This document shows positions 23,480 through 33,386 of a stretch of DNA of 35,335 nt, piece by piece. Below the pieces are notes generated by a model. It did not search any database, was not told the origin of the DNA, and worked only from the letters and a program-made list of their open reading frames with translations. Within the stretch, counting starts at the first letter, position 1, and the number at the start of each line of letters is the position of its first letter. The position numbers and the translations under genes are program-made. Source of the stretch: Pirellulales bacterium (GTDB lineage: Bacteria; Planctomycetota; Planctomycetia; Pirellulales; JADZDJ01); assembly GCA_035499655.1 (NCBI GenBank), contig DATJYL010000207.1, positions 1 to 35,335 on the forward strand. The letters are read 5' to 3'.

Positions 23480-23639
23480 TTGGACGGCATCGTGCTGGAT
23501 TGTTTTCTCATCGCTGTGCCATCATTCCTGACACTGCATCACCCGTCCGGCATTCGCTTGCCGCTTCACCCTGACCCTGGTTGTTGTTATAGTGGGTGAA
23601 GCATTAGGGGGGGCTTCTGGGAACAGCCCGGAGGTCAAG

Positions 23640-26600
23640 TTGTATCCGGCCAAGATTGTATCTGCCGCGGGCCCGGCATTGCGCTGGGGCTTTGTATTTA
23701 GCGGCATCGTTTTTGGTGCGTGGGGCTGGTTGGTGGCCCAAGCCGCTACGGTAGATGTTGCGGCAGGGAATTCCAGCGCTCTAAGCACTGCCGTGACCAA
23801 CGCCAAGCCCGGCGATACCATTGTGCTGCTGGGGGGCACCTACAACACCGGAATCACCACCCACACCGACGGCACGGCCGCCCTGCCGATTACGGTGATC
23901 GGCACCAACGGCGCGAAGCTGAATAGCTCGGTCACCACCACGGGCAGCGGTATTTCGTGCAGCAACGATTATTGGGTTTTTCAAAATATTGCGATCAACG
24001 GATTTCAAAAATCGGTCCGCATCGATAACGGTTCCCACGGAATTCTCAACGGATTGGTCTGCACTAATTCCGGCAATGAATCGATCAAACTGAAAAACTC
24101 CTCTCAGTATTGGCTGGTCGAAAACTGCTCGGTTTCCAATGCCGGAATGGAGGGTTTTTACTGCGGCGACGCCGACCAGAACTGGGAAGGGGGCGTGCCC
24201 GATCAAACCGGCTACGTAACCTTTTACCACGATACGGCCTTCCAAACGTATAATGATGGTTTCGATTCCAAAGAGGCGACCCACGACATTCGCATTATCG
24301 ATTGTTCGGTCGATTGGAATAACACGGTGCCCGGCGGAAACGACGAAGGGGACAGCGGCGTGTATGATCGCGCGAACGGGATTCAAATTGTCAACCTGAA
24401 TGCTAAGAACAACGGCTCGGTGGGAAATGGCGTTCGCGCGAACCGTCTGACGGCGATGAATGGCGTGGCTTACGGCAGCGGAGCGCAGATTTACGGCCTG
24501 GTGCTCAACAACATGCAAGGCACATTGCTGTCGACGAATCAATCAGATACCGCCTTGTACACGAACTATTCGATGACAAACGTGGCCGGCGGATTGGGTG
24601 ATTCCGGCCACACGCAGCCCAACCCCGCCACGTTTTCTTTGACCGGCTGGAATGACCCCAGCGGCAGTTTTCCCACCATCAACATGGTATGGGACAACAG
24701 CCAATCGGCCGTGGGAAATGGCACTACGTGGGATTACAACCAACAGAATTTCAACGATCCCGGCGTCAACGGCAACATTCCGGTCATTTTTTTCCAGGGC
24801 GTAAACGTCGTGTTCAACGACAGTAATAATGGCCATTACAATGTGAACATCGGCGCCAGCGTCAGCCCTGCAGTGGTTATCGTGAACAATAGCTCGGGCA
24901 ACTACGTCTTCAGCGGCAGCGGCGCGATTACGGGAGCTGCCACCCTGACCAAAAGCGGCACGGGAGCGCTCACCATTTCCAACGCCGATACATACAACGG
25001 CAATACCACCGTCAACGGCGGCACGCTGGTCGTCAACGGCAGCGTTTCCTCCAGCGCCTTCATCGTCAATTCAAGCGGCACGCTGCAGGGCTCGGGCAGC
25101 ATTGGCGGCAGCGTAACGATTGCCTCCGGAGGAACGCTCAAGCCGGGTAACTTTTTCGGCGCAACTTCGACCCCGGGTGCATTGCACCTTGATGGGGGCG
25201 TGACGTTCAGCAGCGGGTCCGATTTAAATATCGTTTTAATGGGTAACATTCCGGGCACGCAGTATTCACAGCTGCAGGTGCAAGGGCAAGAGAACTTTGG
25301 AGGAACGCTCGATGTTTCGCTGAGTGGTTTTTTGCCTCAAGAAAACAATTCATTCGATATCCTCGTGGGGGGTTCGCGCAGCGGCATGTTCAGTACCGTA
25401 AACCTGCCCACCATGAACGGCCGCATTATGTGGGATTCATCGCAGCTTTACACGACCGGCAATCTGACGGTGCTGAAAACGTATTACGCAGGTGATTTCA
25501 ACCGCGATGGATATGTGAACGCGGCCGATATTTCAGCCATGATGGCGGCCCTGCTCGATTTGCATGGCTACGAATCTGCCAAAGGGCTGACTGATCCGCA
25601 ATTGCTCCTCGTCGGCGACGTGAACGGCGACGGCAAAGTCAACAACGCCGACATTCAAGCCCTGCTCAATTTGCTGAAATCCGGCCGCGGCTCCACCGAT
25701 CCCGTCCCTGAACCCGGCACTTCCATCCTTTTGATCATCGGTCTGGCTGCATTTTTCCAATTTACTTCCAAGCGCCGTCCCATCGCGCTTGCTTTGTGCT
25801 TTCTGGCAGTCATTTGGCTTGCACCGCAGTGCGCTCGCGCCGCCACCCCGGTGGTGGTTCAGAACGAAGCCGGCTTCGAAGGCCTGGAAGAACCCACGGT
25901 CATTTATTTTCCCGACACCAACACCTTTGAGAACGATCCCACCAATTTTCAAAACCACATGGATGAAGGGGGCGGACTGTTCCGCGATATGCTCCGCAAC
26001 TATTACTCCACCTTAGGTTGGTGGGACGGCGACGGCGCCGATGCCGGCAACACCGATCGCCAGCGGGTCGAACCCAAGGGGATTGTCGGCCTGGGCCATC
26101 AGCAAGTCGAACAAACGTTTGAGTACTCATTCGATTTCCGCACCGACCCCACCTTTCAAGCCACCAGCGACTTCTGCCATATTTTCCAACTCAAAGCCAC
26201 CAACGGCGACGACAGCCCGCCGCTGGCCACCATCTCGCTTTATAAAAGCGGTTCCGGCATTCAGGGGCGAGTCGACGCATTTTCTGACGGCTCTACCGGC
26301 AACACCACGGAATCCATTCCGGTGACATTCTCTTACACCGCCGGCCAGTGGATTCACTTTGATATTCGCATTACCCCCTGCGCCGCCGGAGAAAGTACCG
26401 GCCAAATTCAACTTTCGGTCAACGGCGGCGCCTTCACCGGCATTACCAATGCCCCGGTAGACTTGACCGGCTCGACCGACTTCCGACCCAAATTCGGTTT
26501 TTACCGTGGCATTTCCACGACCGATGGCGTGCCTGCGGGCCTCTCGTGGGTCGAGCACGACGCCATCACCGGTTACATCGGCACCAACAACGTGCTGACG

Positions 26601-28463
26601 TGGAATGGCACGGCGACAACCAATACTTGGGATAACAATACGACGCTAAGCTTTTTAAACGGCGCCAGCGCCACATCGTTCGGCATCAACGATGAAATCA
26701 ATTTCACCGACGCCGCGGCCAACACGACGGTCAATATTTCAGGCAATGTCTTCCCCAACTACATTCGCTTCAATTCGTCGAAGGACTATACGATTTCTGG
26801 GACCGGCTCGATTGTCGGCGGCACGCTCCGGAAAGATGGCGCCGGCACGCTCACGCTGGCCACCACGAATTCGTATGACGGCTTGACCGATGTCACCGCC
26901 GGCACGTTATTTGTTACCGGCTCGATCGGCAATACCTCGCTGGTTTCCATCACCGGAGGCACGCTCAAAGCCGGTTCCACCGCAGCGCTGGGGACCAACT
27001 CCACCATCGGCACACAAATTGACGGCGGCACGCTCGACATCAACGGATTCAATCTGACTACGGAGCCGATTTCGGTCGATGGCACAGGCGCAGGCGGCGT
27101 GGGGGCGATTATCAACAGCGGCGCTCAGCAAACCAGCGCCCTGACCAACGTGACGCTCACCGGCGACACCACCTTCGGCGGCACCGGACGCTGGGATATT
27201 CGCGGCACCGGCGCGACGCTGAGCACCGGCGGCGGCAGTTACAATTTGACGAAAACGGGCACGAACCAGGTGTCGTTCGTCGGAACCAACGTCGATGCCG
27301 CGCTGGGCAACATCAGCATTAATCAAGGCGAGCTTTGCTTTCAGACCAGCACCACTTCCATGGGCGACCCCAATAAAACCGTCACCGTGGCATCGGGCGC
27401 GGTGCTGGGATTTTACAACACTTCCGCCGTCATGAGCAAGCTCTGCACGCTCAACGGCGGCACCATCTGGGGCGAGAGCGGCACCGGCACGCAAAATACT
27501 TTTTCCGGCGTTATTACGCTGGGCGCTTCCGGCGGCGTGTTCGATGCCGGCAGTGCGCTCACCGGCGGCACTCCTAACACTAACGCTGTCCTCACGCTCA
27601 GCGGAGCTATCGGCGGCATCGGCACGCTAACCAAAAACGGCCCCGGCACCGTCACAATTTCGGGAAGCACCAACACCTGGTCGGGCGGCACCAACGTCAA
27701 TGGCGGCACGCTCACCGACAGCGGAATGATTCCTGGCACGATCTTAGTGAACTCTACCGCCACACTTCAAGGCGCGGGAAGTGTTGCCGGTTTGGTTACC
27801 GTTGCCAGCGGTGGGACCATTTCGCCCGGCACCGGCGGCATTGGCACGATGTCAGTCGGATCGCTCACGCTGAACAGCGGCGCGACCGCCGTCTTCCAAT
27901 TGGGCGGCGCAACCAGCGTGCAATTCGACCAAATTCACTCCACGGGAAAAGTGATGCTCGGAGGCACGCTATCGGTTTCTCTCACGAATAATTTCCTGCC
28001 GTTTTGGGGAACCAGTTTCGACTTATTCAATTGGACTTCCGAGTCGGGCACATTCAGCGCGCTGAATCTTCCAACCGCCAACGGCCGAATCGCCTGGAAC
28101 ACCACGCAGCTTTATACCACGGGTGCTATTTCAGTAGCCGCTACTTATCTGGCCGGCGATTTCAACCGCGATGGATATGTGAACGCGGCCGACTTATCAG
28201 CCATGATGGCGGCCCTGCCCGATTTGCACGGCTACGAATTCGCCAAAGGGCTGACTGATCCACAATTGCTGCTCGTCGGCGATGTTAACGGCGATGGCAA
28301 AGTGACTAACGCGGATCTGCAAGCTTTGTTGAGTTATCTTAAATCCGGGGGCGGCTCTACCGACCCGGTCCCCGAGCCGGAGGGGATCGTGTTGCTATCT
28401 CTGGGCATTTTGGCACTGCTTTTCCAGCATCGGGGTGGGCTCGACCGTTTCCAGACCGAATAG
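23640..28463 (+). CDS. Giant fused exoprotein: beta-helix lyase + dockerin + PEP-CTERM joined to jelly-roll lyase + repeats + dockerin + PEP-CTERM
   Basis: About 1607 residues. Half one: signal peptide (GFVFSGIVFGAWGWLVAQA), PL6/PL9-like right-handed beta-helix (about 40-330; GDTIVLLGGTYN, YNDGFDSKEATHDIRIIDCS), autotransporter-associated strand repeats, a dockerin-like pair (DFNRDGYVNAADI and DVNGDGKVNNADI, from about 618), and a PEP-CTERM tail (P690-E-P, helix, SKRR). Without a stop it continues into a second signal-like segment (IALALCFLAVIWLAP...ARA, 715-734). Half two: a heparin-lyase-I-like jelly roll (about 735-985; FEYSFDFRTDP, HIFQLKA), further strand repeats, a second dockerin (about 1505-1575) and a final PEP-CTERM. 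The TTG at 23640 has GGAGG 5 bases upstream and is preferred to the GTG at 23592. It is probably exported and surface-sorted, and degrades an acidic polysaccharide (inference). Confidence 0.88.
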   Translation: MYPAKIVSAAGPALRWGFVFSGIVFGAWGWLVAQAATVDVAAGNSSALSTAVTNAKPGDTIVLLGGTYNTGITTHTDGTAALPITVIGTNGAKLNSSVTTTGSGISCSNDYWVFQNIAINGFQKSVRIDNGSHGILNGLVCTNSGNESIKLKNSSQYWLVENCSVSNAGMEGFYCGDADQNWEGGVPDQTGYVTFYHDTAFQTYNDGFDSKEATHDIRIIDCSVDWNNTVPGGNDEGDSGVYDRANGIQIVNLNAKNNGSVGNGVRANRLTAMNGVAYGSGAQIYGLVLNNMQGTLLSTNQSDTALYTNYSMTNVAGGLGDSGHTQPNPATFSLTGWNDPSGSFPTINMVWDNSQSAVGNGTTWDYNQQNFNDPGVNGNIPVIFFQGVNVVFNDSNNGHYNVNIGASVSPAVVIVNNSSGNYVFSGSGAITGAATLTKSGTGALTISNADTYNGNTTVNGGTLVVNGSVSSSAFIVNSSGTLQGSGSIGGSVTIASGGTLKPGNFFGATSTPGALHLDGGVTFSSGSDLNIVLMGNIPGTQYSQLQVQGQENFGGTLDVSLSGFLPQENNSFDILVGGSRSGMFSTVNLPTMNGRIMWDSSQLYTTGNLTVLKTYYAGDFNRDGYVNAADISAMMAALLDLHGYESAKGLTDPQLLLVGDVNGDGKVNNADIQALLNLLKSGRGSTDPVPEPGTSILLIIGLAAFFQFTSKRRPIALALCFLAVIWLAPQCARAATPVVVQNEAGFEGLEEPTVIYFPDTNTFENDPTNFQNHMDEGGGLFRDMLRNYYSTLGWWDGDGADAGNTDRQRVEPKGIVGLGHQQVEQTFEYSFDFRTDPTFQATSDFCHIFQLKATNGDDSPPLATISLYKSGSGIQGRVDAFSDGSTGNTTESIPVTFSYTAGQWIHFDIRITPCAAGESTGQIQLSVNGGAFTGITNAPVDLTGSTDFRPKFGFYRGISTTDGVPAGLSWVEHDAITGYIGTNNVLTWNGTATTNTWDNNTTLSFLNGASATSFGINDEINFTDAAANTTVNISGNVFPNYIRFNSSKDYTISGTGSIVGGTLRKDGAGTLTLATTNSYDGLTDVTAGTLFVTGSIGNTSLVSITGGTLKAGSTAALGTNSTIGTQIDGGTLDINGFNLTTEPISVDGTGAGGVGAIINSGAQQTSALTNVTLTGDTTFGGTGRWDIRGTGATLSTGGGSYNLTKTGTNQVSFVGTNVDAALGNISINQGELCFQTSTTSMGDPNKTVTVASGAVLGFYNTSAVMSKLCTLNGGTIWGESGTGTQNTFSGVITLGASGGVFDAGSALTGGTPNTNAVLTLSGAIGGIGTLTKNGPGTVTISGSTNTWSGGTNVNGGTLTDSGMIPGTILVNSTATLQGAGSVAGLVTVASGGTISPGTGGIGTMSVGSLTLNSGATAVFQLGGATSVQFDQIHSTGKVMLGGTLSVSLTNNFLPFWGTSFDLFNWTSESGTFSALNLPTANGRIAWNTTQLYTTGAISVAATYLAGDFNRDGYVNAADLSAMMAALPDLHGYEFAKGLTDPQLLLVGDVNGDGKVTNADLQALLSYLKSGGGSTDPVPEPEGIVLLSLGILALLFQHRGGLDRFQTE
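25491..25720 (+). repeat. Dockerin/PEP module, copy 1
   Basis: This segment encodes the first dockerin-like pair and runs to the PEP motif. It aligns colinearly with copy 2 at a constant offset of 2664 bases (25491 with 28155, 25704 with 28368) and is nearly identical over long runs, including the stretch around GCGGCC...ATGATGGCGGCCCTG. After the PEP motif the similarity stops. Confidence 0.85.
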
Positions 28464-28575
28464 TCTGGGCCCATGAAATCAGGTTATTGCGGGGTCTGAG
28501 TCTGCCGTTTTTAAAATTTTTTCGAAAAGTGCTGACGCGAAATGAATTCGTGGTTATACTGACGCTACGCCGGGT
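28155..28575 (+). repeat. Dockerin/PEP-CTERM module, copy 2, with downstream flank
   Basis: It aligns with copy 3 at a constant offset of 4923 bases: dockerin start 28155 with 33078, PEP codon 28368 with 33291, stop 28463 with 33386, promoter-like CTGACG 28532 with 33455. The matching region therefore includes the coding end and about 110 bases of non-coding sequence. Confidence 0.85.
28532..28560 (+). promoter_or_regulatory. Promoter-like site before the 1589-residue protein gene
   Basis: CTGACG (28532-28537) and TATACT (28555-28560) are separated by exactly 17 bp, 56 bp before the ATG at 28617. It is a good housekeeping-type match. It is also part of the duplicated segment; the second copy at 33455-33483 has a weaker GATACC. 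Confidence 0.55.
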
Positions 28576-28616
28576 TTCGGGGGGATTTTTTATCAGGTCC
28601 GGGGAAGAAGGCTGTG

Positions 28617-31600
28617 ATGGCCCGGCTCGGCGTTTCTTTGTTTGTTATTCTGCAGATGGCGGTTATTCTGCGGACTGCGCTTGCCGATGCGCCGCCGAGC
28701 AGTTGGGTTTTTTATGGCGCGGATGGCAAGCTGCAATATCAGGCCACGGCCGCCGGCGACACCATTCCTGATTTCTCCGGCGCCGGCTACATGGGTGGAA
28801 CCCAGAATATTCCATTAGTGCCCGTGGTGCTGACGCTGAATCCCAGCCCCACGCCGACGGACGATACGGCGCGCATTCAAGCGGCCATCAATCAGGTGTC
28901 CGCCATGCCTCTGGTCAACGGCGTCCGCGGAACGATTTTATTCACGGCCGGCACTTACGATATCAGCAGTACGCTAAACATTAACGCTTCGGGAGTTGTG
29001 TTGCGCGGGCAAGGGCAAGGTCCTACGGGCACGTTGTTTTATTCCACCGGCACAACGATGTACAACGTGATCGAGGCTGAGCCGACAGGGAGCGATTCGT
29101 TTCACGCTGTGAGCGGCACAACCTCCACGATCGTCGACAGCTATGTGCCAGTTGGGGCGACTTCGTTCAGCGTTTCTTCCGCCGACATCAGCACGTACCA
29201 CGTGGGTGACCAAATTGTGGTGAATCGTCCCTCTACCCAAGCGTGGATCACGGCCATCGGCATGGATGCTACGGGCTTGGGAACTGAAGCCTGGAGCCCC
29301 AACAGCAGTTTTATCCAGGCTGACCGCACCATCACGGCCATCAATGGGGACAAAATTACGGTGAATTTGCCGATCACTACCTCGTTGGATTCCACCAACG
29401 GCGACGCCTATGGCGGCGGCACGATTTTCAAGTACACGACCAGCCGCATTAGCAATGTGGGCGTGGAGAACATACGGTTCGACACTGTGTTTGCCTCCAC
29501 CAGCGACAACAATCACGCCAACCGCCCGATCGAATTCGACGGCGTATCGAACAGTTGGATCCGCAACACGACCACGCTGCACTACTACAATGGCCCGTAC
29601 TTTGGCGCCTACAGCGAGTTCGACACGATGCAAGACAACGTGTTTCTTGATGCGGTGGGGGATGCCCACACCGGGGGCTTTGCGCTGGGAGGGCAAACCG
29701 CCGTAATCCAGCGCAACTACACCGACAACACGCACGCGCCGTTTGTCACACAGGATTCCCATACGGTTGGCCCCAGTGCCTTTGTTTTCGATACGGCCAA
29801 GGATTCGCTGCAATCGGTGGGTCCCCATCAGCGCTGGGCCAGCGGCGTGTTGTGGGACAACATTAAAGTGACCAATGCTTCCAGCGGGAGCGGCGGCATC
29901 GAATTGGTCAATCGCGGCAATTTCGGCTCCGGGCAAGGCTGGGCTGGAGCGAATATGGTTACGTGGAACACGAATTCTCCCTGGATCGACGTGGAAAGCC
30001 CCCCTACGGCACAGAATTGGGCCATCGGCGCCATTTCGCCGGATCGCCGAGTAGATTTTACCGGGCCGGAGGGAATTTACGATTCCTTCGGCACGCCGGT
30101 TTCCCCCAACAGCCTGTACATAGCGCAACTGAAGCAGTCCTTGGGCACGCAGCCCACGGCCACGGCCACGCATCAATTCTCGGTCGGGCCGAACACCAAT
30201 TTCACCGGCCCGTCGGTCATGCCGTATATCGATCCGGACTGGCAGGCGCTGGTCCAGTCGAGCGACATGCCGGGGAGCGGCTCCGTAGTGGGCTTCGATA
30301 ATTCCACGCTTAACGCCCGCCGCGCTGCGACCATTCTGTATAGCCTGAAGCCGCAAGAAAAGGTTGTGTCCGGCACGCTCACGTTGAAGGTCGAGGCGCT
30401 GGCCAATTTGACGACAAACGATTCTTTCTTCTTGGGCAGCGCCGGCATGGAATTGGATTTTGACATGATGGGCCAACTCCCGTGGTCGAAAAATCAAATT
30501 CGCACGATCACGCTCGACCTATCAGATATTTACGGACCTCTGCTGGGGCCATTGCAGAACGATTCTCTCACCGCCGGCAAATTCAATTTGTTTTGGAATG
30601 GAAATGTGAGCATCGATTCTGCACAATTGACGTTGGGCACCATTGGATTTACTTCAGGGGTTTCCCGTACCTGGAATGGCGCTGGCGCCAACGCCAATTG
30701 GACCACCGGCGCCAATTGGGGTGGCACGGCCCCAGCCGCTGGCGACAGCCTGGTGTTCGATGGCACGCTTGGCCTGGTCAACACGAACAACCTGGCGGCC
30801 AACAGCCTGATCACCGGCCTTGCTTTCCAGAGCACGGCTGGCGCGTTTGTCATCAGCGGCAACGCCATTACCATGGGCGGCGACATCACCGATCAGTCCA
30901 CAGCGCTGCAAACGATTAACTTCGGGCTGGCCCTGGATACCACCCATACGGTGAACGTCACCGGCGGCGGCACGTTGGTTTTAGGCGGTGTTGTTTCCGG
31001 CAACGGCGCGGGCCTGACCAAGACCGGATTGGGCACTTTAAAGCTGATTGCCGCAAATGCTTACAGCGGGCCGACCACCGTGAACGGTGGAACGCTGATT
31101 TTGGATTTTGCGCCCGTCGCGCCTAGCTCCATCCTTAGTTCTTCTAGCACGGTTGCACTGGGGGGCGGGGCGTTGGCCGTCAACGGTGCGGCGGCCGGTT
31201 CCATCCAGACCGTGAGCAGTTTGACGCTGAATGCCGGCGCTTCGGCCCTTTCTGTTACGAGTAATGGTTCGGCAACGTCATTAAACTTGGGCGCCATCAC
31301 TCGGGCCGTAGGGGGTGCGGTGAACTTTACGCTTCCCACAGCCGGCAGCATCACCACCACGACCGCCAACGCCAATTTCTCCGGAGGCCAGCAATCCATC
31401 ATTGGCGGCTACGCCACCGTGGCCGGCGCCACCTGGGCAGTAAGCGCTTCCGATGGCAACACCCCCGGCGCGATCACTGGCCTGGCCAACTACGTCACCA
31501 ACGTTTTCACCGCAGGCAAAGATGTGGATTTAACCTCCAGTCAAACCAGCGCCTCCACTTTGACGATCAACTCCCTGCGATTGTCCGGCAACTCTTCCGG

Positions 31601-33386
31601 TCAAACGGTCACTCTCAGCAATCCGCTGACCGTGGCCACCGGCGGAATCTTGGTGACCAACCCCAATGACGAAACGCTGTCGGGCAGCAGCATCACCTCA
31701 GGCAATGGACAGGATGTGATTTTCCAAATCAAGAATTCCGATCACAACCTAACGTTGAGTTCGCAGATTACCGGCAGCGTGGGTCTGACGCTGATTGGCG
31801 GCCCTGATTCCGGCGGCATACCCAATCGTGGCCGGCTCAAACTGGAAAATTCCACCAACAATTTTGTGGGCAACATCACCATTGCTAGTGGGCGGCTCCA
31901 GCTTGATGCCGCAGCGCTAGGGGATCCCAGTAATTCCATTGTGATCATGGGCGGCCTCAATGGCGGCGGACAATTGTTCGACAATAACGTGGCCATTGCC
32001 GCCACGCACCAAATTTTGATTTCCGGGCTGGGTTTTGCCGAAGGATCAACGTCGGGCAGTTACGGCGCCATTCGTGTCCGAAACACCATTTCCAGCCCGA
32101 TTTTGCTGACCGGCGACGCCCGCATCGGCACCAGCAACAGCGGAATATTGGCCGGGCCGATTTCGGGCGATAATGAGTTGTCGTTGGCCGCAGATTCCGG
32201 TCAAACGCTCACCCTTTCTAGCGCTGCGAACGATTGGACAGGCGGCACGCGCATTGAGCGCGGCAAAATTGTGCTGGGAGTCGACAATGCTCTGCCCACC
32301 GATACGCTATTGACATTTGGCTCGACTATCGCCCCCGTCGGCCCGTGGAGTCCGCGAGGCAGTGCCACGCCCACACTGGAGCTGAACGGCCACAATCTGC
32401 AATTGGGTGGCTTCACGATTCAGTCGCCCCTGGACACAGGCTACAGCGGAACCCCCACGATCACCAACACCGGCAACACCGCGGACTTGCTCACGATTAA
32501 TAACACGGCTGATTTCAATTTCGCCGGCACCATCACCAACGGCGCCAATTCGCTTTCGGTAATGAAGCTTGGCGCGGGCACGCAAACCATATCGGGCACC
32601 AATAGCTACACGGGCACAACCACCATCAACGGCGGCGCTTTGGTCATAGGAGCCGCTGGCGCACTGCCCACGGGCGGTGCGGTCGTCAACAATGCTGCGT
32701 TTAACGTCGATGCCAATACATCGGCGGGCAGCGTGTCGGGCACGGGAACCACAACCGTAGCTGGCGGAGTTATCTTGAACGCCAGCAGTTTCGCGCAAGG
32801 TAAGTTGACAATGCAGCTGGCCGGTGCCGCAGCCTCAGCCAATGCCAAGCTAAATGTCTCCGGCACTTTGACGTTGGCAGGCAGCAGCTTAGAGGTGGTT
32901 GCGATCGGTGGCTTCACACCATTGTTGGGGAACAGCTTTGATCTGCTAGATTGGGGTAGCCGTAGTGGATTTTTTTCATCCGTGGAACTGCCCGCGCTGG
33001 GAAATTCGCTGGCCTGGAACACCACCCGGCTGTATACGGCGGGCATCCTCTCGGTAATTGACAGCAATTATTTGCCGGGAGATTTCAATCGCGATGGCGA
33101 AGTCAACGCCGCGGACGTTCTGGTCATGGAACAGGCGCTGACCAATTTGCCCGGATACCAAACCGCTAAAGACCTAACCAATGCACAATTGTTGGCAATC
33201 GGCGATGTTAACGGCGACGGCAAAGTCAACAATGCGGATCTGCAAGCCCTGCAGAGCTTTCTCGAATCCGGCGGCGGTTCCACCGACACCGTGCCCGAGC
33301 CGGCTGGGGCCGTGTTACTATCTCTGGGCACTTTAGCACTGCTTTTCCAGCGGCGGACTAGGGCTCGATCGTTTCCAGTCCAATAA
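28617..33386 (+). CDS. Giant beta-helix exoprotein with autotransporter-type repeats, dockerin and PEP-CTERM
   Basis: A 1589-residue protein. The signal peptide (MARLGVSLFVILQMAVILRT) is followed by WVFYGADGKLQYQATAAGD, then GYMGGT, and a Pectate_lyase_3-like beta-helix to about residue 560. This part is paralogous to the protein encoded at 13778-15475. Residues from about 680 (WNGAGANANWTTGANWG) to 1450 hold autotransporter-associated beta-strand repeats, with phrases such as GLTKTGLGTLKL and AYSGPTTVNGGTL. A dockerin-like pair begins near 1487 (DFNRDGEVNAADV, DVNGDGKVNNADL), and the PEP-CTERM tail follows from about 1560 (VPEPAG, hydrophobic helix, QRRTRAR). AAGG 5 bases before the ATG supports the start over the GTG at 28614. 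It is probably exosortase-sorted to the surface; no exosortase gene is in the window. Confidence 0.9.
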   Translation: MARLGVSLFVILQMAVILRTALADAPPSSWVFYGADGKLQYQATAAGDTIPDFSGAGYMGGTQNIPLVPVVLTLNPSPTPTDDTARIQAAINQVSAMPLVNGVRGTILFTAGTYDISSTLNINASGVVLRGQGQGPTGTLFYSTGTTMYNVIEAEPTGSDSFHAVSGTTSTIVDSYVPVGATSFSVSSADISTYHVGDQIVVNRPSTQAWITAIGMDATGLGTEAWSPNSSFIQADRTITAINGDKITVNLPITTSLDSTNGDAYGGGTIFKYTTSRISNVGVENIRFDTVFASTSDNNHANRPIEFDGVSNSWIRNTTTLHYYNGPYFGAYSEFDTMQDNVFLDAVGDAHTGGFALGGQTAVIQRNYTDNTHAPFVTQDSHTVGPSAFVFDTAKDSLQSVGPHQRWASGVLWDNIKVTNASSGSGGIELVNRGNFGSGQGWAGANMVTWNTNSPWIDVESPPTAQNWAIGAISPDRRVDFTGPEGIYDSFGTPVSPNSLYIAQLKQSLGTQPTATATHQFSVGPNTNFTGPSVMPYIDPDWQALVQSSDMPGSGSVVGFDNSTLNARRAATILYSLKPQEKVVSGTLTLKVEALANLTTNDSFFLGSAGMELDFDMMGQLPWSKNQIRTITLDLSDIYGPLLGPLQNDSLTAGKFNLFWNGNVSIDSAQLTLGTIGFTSGVSRTWNGAGANANWTTGANWGGTAPAAGDSLVFDGTLGLVNTNNLAANSLITGLAFQSTAGAFVISGNAITMGGDITDQSTALQTINFGLALDTTHTVNVTGGGTLVLGGVVSGNGAGLTKTGLGTLKLIAANAYSGPTTVNGGTLILDFAPVAPSSILSSSSTVALGGGALAVNGAAAGSIQTVSSLTLNAGASALSVTSNGSATSLNLGAITRAVGGAVNFTLPTAGSITTTTANANFSGGQQSIIGGYATVAGATWAVSASDGNTPGAITGLANYVTNVFTAGKDVDLTSSQTSASTLTINSLRLSGNSSGQTVTLSNPLTVATGGILVTNPNDETLSGSSITSGNGQDVIFQIKNSDHNLTLSSQITGSVGLTLIGGPDSGGIPNRGRLKLENSTNNFVGNITIASGRLQLDAAALGDPSNSIVIMGGLNGGGQLFDNNVAIAATHQILISGLGFAEGSTSGSYGAIRVRNTISSPILLTGDARIGTSNSGILAGPISGDNELSLAADSGQTLTLSSAANDWTGGTRIERGKIVLGVDNALPTDTLLTFGSTIAPVGPWSPRGSATPTLELNGHNLQLGGFTIQSPLDTGYSGTPTITNTGNTADLLTINNTADFNFAGTITNGANSLSVMKLGAGTQTISGTNSYTGTTTINGGALVIGAAGALPTGGAVVNNAAFNVDANTSAGSVSGTGTTTVAGGVILNASSFAQGKLTMQLAGAAASANAKLNVSGTLTLAGSSLEVVAIGGFTPLLGNSFDLLDWGSRSGFFSSVELPALGNSLAWNTTRLYTAGILSVIDSNYLPGDFNRDGEVNAADVLVMEQALTNLPGYQTAKDLTNAQLLAIGDVNGDGKVNNADLQALQSFLESGGGSTDTVPEPAGAVLLSLGTLALLFQRRTRARSFPVQ

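Follow-up and report, generated by a model that had tools for sequence, protein, structure and literature searches.

Two PEP-CTERM exoproteins joined in one reading frame in Pirellulales: a probable polyprotein of secreted enzymes

Polyproteins are usually thought of as viral. In the DNA analyzed here, a stretch of 35,335 nucleotides from a Pirellulales bacterium (hereafter the window), two complete exoproteins are joined without a stop codon. The locus raises the question of whether a bacterial gene can encode a single secreted precursor that is cut at the membrane into two enzymes.

The gene lies in a forward-strand frame (23592-28463) that encodes 1623 amino acids without a stop and in which GTG 23592 is the longer start. 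TTG 23640, with GGAGG upstream at 23630-23634, is the better start, and both are kept in a sister species; counted from this TTG, the internal motif is P690-E-P. An earlier note on this DNA had described an uninterrupted frame through two complete PEP-CTERM exoproteins, and its description of the join is borne out. The first half closes with a dockerin and a full PEP-CTERM signal (motif, helix and KRR) that scores above the cut-offs of both Pfam (23.2 against 20.7) and NCBIfam TIGR02595 (18.5 against 16). A signal-peptide-like segment ending in ARA, PIALALCFLAVIWLAPQCARA followed by A, then leads into a new lyase domain (Table 1). The n-region of this segment is the KRR of the preceding PEP-CTERM, and no start codon in the segment is accompanied by a ribosome site. 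The signal-peptide calls rest on hydropathy and A-x-A counts; by inspection and hydropathy, the signal peptide of unit 1 ends in LVAQA before A, and the internal segment of unit 2 in CARA before A. Recoded stop codons were considered and are unnecessary, since genetic code table 11 leaves the frames open.

Table 1. Features of the fused gene, in window coordinates.
Feature	Position	Strand	Basis or remark
Fused two-exoprotein gene	23640..28463	+	1607 codons plus stop; frame also open in L010
N-terminal signal peptide, ending LVAQA before ATV	23640..23744	+	sequence
Unit 1 catalytic module, right-handed beta-helix, alginate lyase 6kfn-like	23739..24851	+	E 7e-13
PATR / beta-strand repeat, unit 1	24945..25034	+	domain profiles
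Dockerin type I, unit 1	25488..25676	+	Dockerin_1, E 3e-10
Internal PEP-CTERM: VPEP 25704-25715, hydrophobic helix, KRR 25770-25778	25701..25778	+	28.0 bits, above cut-off; predicted exosortase site
Internal signal-peptide-like segment PIALALCFLAVIWLAPQCARA	25779..25841	+	aligned in L010; predicted signal peptidase I site after ARA
Polysacc_lyase PF14099, unit 2	26100..26519	+	E 1e-7
PATR / beta-strand repeat region, unit 2	26826..27713	+	domain profiles
Dockerin type I, unit 2	28152..28340	+	84% identical in DNA to the dockerin region of unit 1
Terminal PEP-CTERM, unit 2	28365..28427	+	weak, 18.6 bits

The adjoining gene (28614-33386) encodes a third, separate large exoprotein with PATR repeats, Dockerin_1 and a PEP-like tail. 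It shows weak similarity to a hyaluronate-lyase family, and the region is likely a polysaccharide-degradation locus. An element of the form TTATA[GC]TG...GGGGGG..TT lies upstream of both window exoprotein genes (23587-23618 and 28554-28590); the genome has no other exact match to this pattern, which was drawn up after both had been seen. A similar element follows the fused gene in the sister species, and none is present at the fused join.

Both predicted proteases are encoded in the home genome. Its exosortase (PF09721, 210 bits, G000:C237) carries CSGLRML and the R and H motif residues; cysteine, arginine and histidine are the residues expected of an exosortase. Signal peptidase I is also encoded. 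The genome contains 67 PEP-CTERM matches, 57 of which were traced to a stop codon. Fifty-six of these stop within 38 residues (median 5), and the window gene, the only fused PEP-CTERM among the 57 checked, continues for 894. Its internal signal is therefore not at the extreme C-terminus, and unit 2 has a weak terminal signal of its own.

The orthologue comparison proposed in the earlier note returned one fused gene. In another species of the genus (L010, G001:C145), the gene lies in a single frame with 80% amino acid identity over residues 5-1616. Between the two species, the whole gene has a dS of 1.16, with silent sites near saturation, and a dN/dS of 0.115 (Nei-Gojobori); the two catalytic modules have values of 0.03 and 0.05. 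One open frame, in which a complete PEP-CTERM is joined to a signal-peptide-like segment, is thus kept at silent-site saturation. Indels in the join are solely multiples of three. At the junction dN/dS is 0.33, compared with 0.58 for the N-terminal signal peptide, so the join evolves like a constrained signal peptide. The VPEP and ARAA columns are identical at 8 of 8 positions, as against 12 of 40 in the other join columns (hypergeometric p 3e-4), which indicates that both predicted cleavage motifs are what the join keeps. Searches of 397 Pirellulales genomes and 392 genomes of the phylum found no stand-alone relatives of the unit 2 enzyme (Polysacc_lyase). Because its relatives are confined to two members of the genus, they do not polarize split versus fused ancestry.

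A join profile was searched over the 397 genomes of the order, and fetched loci were scanned in addition. The same type of join (VPEP, helix, RRR, second hydrophobic segment, A-x-A, new domain) links unrelated proteins in many fused frames, which occur in at least 18 Pirellulales genomes from seven families. One frame (L071, 1591-8874, minus strand, G046:C14) has seven units in 2427 amino acids, and another (L077, G029:C91) has ten units in 2531 amino acids, giving up to nine joins per gene. Complete chromosomes contain such frames as well, with three units in G150, three in the cultured Lacipirellula limnantheis I41 (G158, NZ_CP036339.1, around 2693200-2697500) and two in G081; the Pirellulales MAG SJ197 shares the three-unit frame of L. 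limnantheis I41. Of 38 junctions (18 frames, two from G029), 95% have a strongly hydrophobic segment after the basic cluster; the figure for control stretches is 0.8%. The polyprotein proposed in the earlier note gains support from this recurrence in many unrelated proteins, with up to ten units per frame, the cleavage itself being predicted.

Further observations concern the reach and variety of these frames. A search over the phylum returned chiefly plain terminal PEP-CTERMs and one fused frame outside the order. This fused PEP-CTERM/signal-peptide junction (L092, minus strand, G555:C26), in a planctomycete, extends the architecture beyond Pirellulales. In L071, six modules resemble, by eye, tandem duplicates of one sulfatase-modifying-factor-like domain, and one differs; units can thus multiply through duplication inside the frame. 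At L015 (minus strand) and L084 4264-6930 (minus strand), G048:C15, the frame runs on from a PEP-CTERM into an N-terminus resembling that of type IV pseudopilins, which suggests a fusion that would be processed by exosortase and prepilin peptidase.

The extreme case is the MAG G029, in which a scan of fetched contigs, alongside PF07589 matches, placed 77 PEP-CTERM units in 19 multi-unit frames on 15 contigs; most PEP-CTERM units of this genome sit in multi-unit frames. Within a frame, internal and terminal PEP-CTERMs look alike (VPEPSTALLLGLGLVGLVARRRR). A-x-A is present in the expected interval at 46 of 61 junctions and, over the 18 residues that follow, at 7 of 61; composition-matched shuffles predict about 35, a modest excess for the observed 46 that makes the A-x-A count supportive, not decisive. 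Three long junction linkers (L077 near 5906, L138 near 1242 and L141 near 4139) share a motif resembling RRWTxGRxWWTSxLKxEAxxGRD. The motif precedes a later signal peptide and is possibly a translated former leader or a conserved element.

Taken together, these observations make it probable that the window gene encodes a secreted-enzyme polyprotein, with predicted cleavage by exosortase and signal peptidase I. It is the two-unit case of an architecture repeated up to ten times elsewhere in Pirellulales. The weak terminal PEP-CTERM, the status of the gene as the sole fused case among those traced in its home genome, the modest A-x-A excess in G029 and an earlier suggestion that long-tailed PEP-CTERM proteins may lack function count against this reading. 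Since genes of relatives carry up to nine copies of this join, these bacteria appear to make secreted proteins as polyproteins resembling those of viruses. On balance, the evidence leans towards a broader view in which some Planctomycetota make much of their exoproteome in this form, as a general expression strategy. Up to ten unrelated secreted proteins would share one chain, which exosortase and signal peptidase I would cut apart at the membrane; G029 would be the extreme and the window gene a two-unit member.

For the join, we infer an export route, a topology and cleavage, the last having a precedent in the processing of HVO_0405 by archaeosortase. The chain would leave via Sec. The first helix would halt translocation, with KRR staying in the cytoplasm, and the second would restart it as an internal signal peptide that takes the same cluster as its n-region. 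The arrangement is self-consistent: one basic cluster would play two roles, anchoring the PEP-CTERM helix on the cytoplasmic side and supplying the n-region for the signal peptide that follows. On the outer side of the membrane, exosortase would cleave at PEP and signal peptidase I after ARA (A-x-A). The predicted products are two separate surface-sorted polysaccharide lyases, with a small membrane hairpin left behind. A single start site would probably provide equal amounts and co-export of the exoproteins.

This topology would also work without cleavage, in which case the hairpin would be the permanent membrane anchor of an uncleaved bi-domain surface protein, holding both lyases with neither site cut. 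An anchor would be hydrophobic and quick to diverge, and the join is both. A permanent anchor has no need of a kept ARA before A, yet this motif and the PEP are both fully kept between the window and the sister species. Nor does it need a PEP before each internal helix, yet a scan that sought hairpins, not PEP, found PEP right before the first helix in 83 of 84 internal basic-loop hairpins (36 frames), a count that is not wholly unbiased because the multi-unit frames were picked for PEP motifs. The single hairpin without PEP is a scan artefact, caused by a false pairing within a dockerin encoded in the window. Both candidate proteases are encoded in the home genome, and ArtA, which is homologous to exosortase, cleaves its substrate centrally (PMC7157517). 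An uncleaved hairpin is possible yet less likely than a polyprotein, and we consider it improbable. It is more doubtful still that gene 1 lost its stop and that unit 2 is made mostly by internal initiation, the open join being tolerated read-through. The window gene itself starts with TTG, and TTG 25794 is the sole in-frame start codon at its join, with GTG codons near the same place in the sister species. However, neither species has a ribosome site at its internal codon, and a start at TTG 25794 would delete the basic n-region. In G029, a few junctions retain an ATG together with a ribosome site and could use internal initiation. Just 5 of 64 have any start with a ribosome-site-like sequence, whereas 43 of the 64 internal junctions lack an in-frame ATG, GTG or TTG from the basic cluster up to the new hydrophobic core.

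The window derives from a 244-contig assembly, and its two dockerin ends are 84% alike, which would favor an assembly or sequencing artefact. The earlier note had named both an assembly error and a single recent mutation as grounds for abandoning the join. Both are rejected and carry next to no probability: an independent assembly, from a second species, contains the join at a dS of about 1.2, the same architecture occurs in complete genomes of other genera, and none of the relatives found has a stop between the halves. A different proposal is that fusion is selectively neutral, with processing making it harmless, so that stop losses between adjacent PEP-CTERM genes pile up without benefit. 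The long linkers of some G029 junctions, which resemble a translated former leader, speak for such a history, as does the minority share of fused PEP-CTERM genes in most genomes. In G029, however, most PEP-CTERM units sit in multi-unit frames, which is hard to reach via drift alone, and L. limnantheis, G150 and SJ197 all retain frames of three units. Neutral accumulation is accordingly a tentative explanation that we hold to be rather unlikely. It addresses a question of origin, namely how fusions may arise, and is compatible with polyprotein processing.

If the polyprotein reading is true, these genes would be a cellular counterpart of viral polyproteins, with up to ten secreted proteins per chain released via a reusable hairpin, and would represent a new way to organize secretion. 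Exosortase would act on internal sites, and translocation would stop and restart many times per chain. Exosortase cleavage is directly testable here because each cut should give two detectable products. Existing annotation probably records each multi-unit frame as one giant protein.

With the PEP-CTERM/exosortase (EpsH) system, the window gene shares the PEP motif, hydrophobic helix and basic cluster, dockerin-bearing exoproteins and an exosortase in the genome. In contrast to that system, its signal is internal and is followed by an in-frame signal peptide and an enzyme. By motif and enzyme the gene is a member of the system, whereas the internal signals lack the defining C-terminal position. 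Long-tailed PEP-CTERM proteins were described as very few and possibly non-functional (Haft 2006, PMC1569441), and such proteins have been set aside on that account. For the long-tailed frames described here, the evidence argues against this view. A literature search for polyproteins with PEP-CTERM or in planctomycetes returned no report; key subscription papers lay outside the search, so priority is uncertain.

HVO_0405 was reportedly described as an archaeosortase A substrate by Abdul Halim in 2017. Archaeosortase A (ArtA), an exosortase homologue, cuts this protein in vivo at a centrally located site (PMC7157517). Like the window gene, HVO_0405 is a domain fusion with a tripartite signal in mid-chain, in its case PGF-helix-basic. 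It differs in being archaeal and in having been described as a strain-specific fusion, and no internal signal peptide or repeated units are recorded for it in that source. An internal sorting tag in a fusion is also found in MXAN_5598, where an internal MYXO-CTERM in a probable two-gene fusion is proposed to be processed (PMC11980579). That protein is a single case with another tag and protease, and its second half is an outer-membrane barrel with OmpA domains. In the Bradyrhizobium FbcH cytochrome b/c1 polyprotein, cleavage of one bacterial precursor at an internal signal sequence yields two proteins. FbcH differs in yielding membrane respiratory proteins, in having no sorting-signal protease and in being limited to two units. 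What the frames described here add to the internal-tag fusions of the papers cited is an internal signal peptide that shares the basic cluster of the preceding sorting signal, and repetition to ten units.
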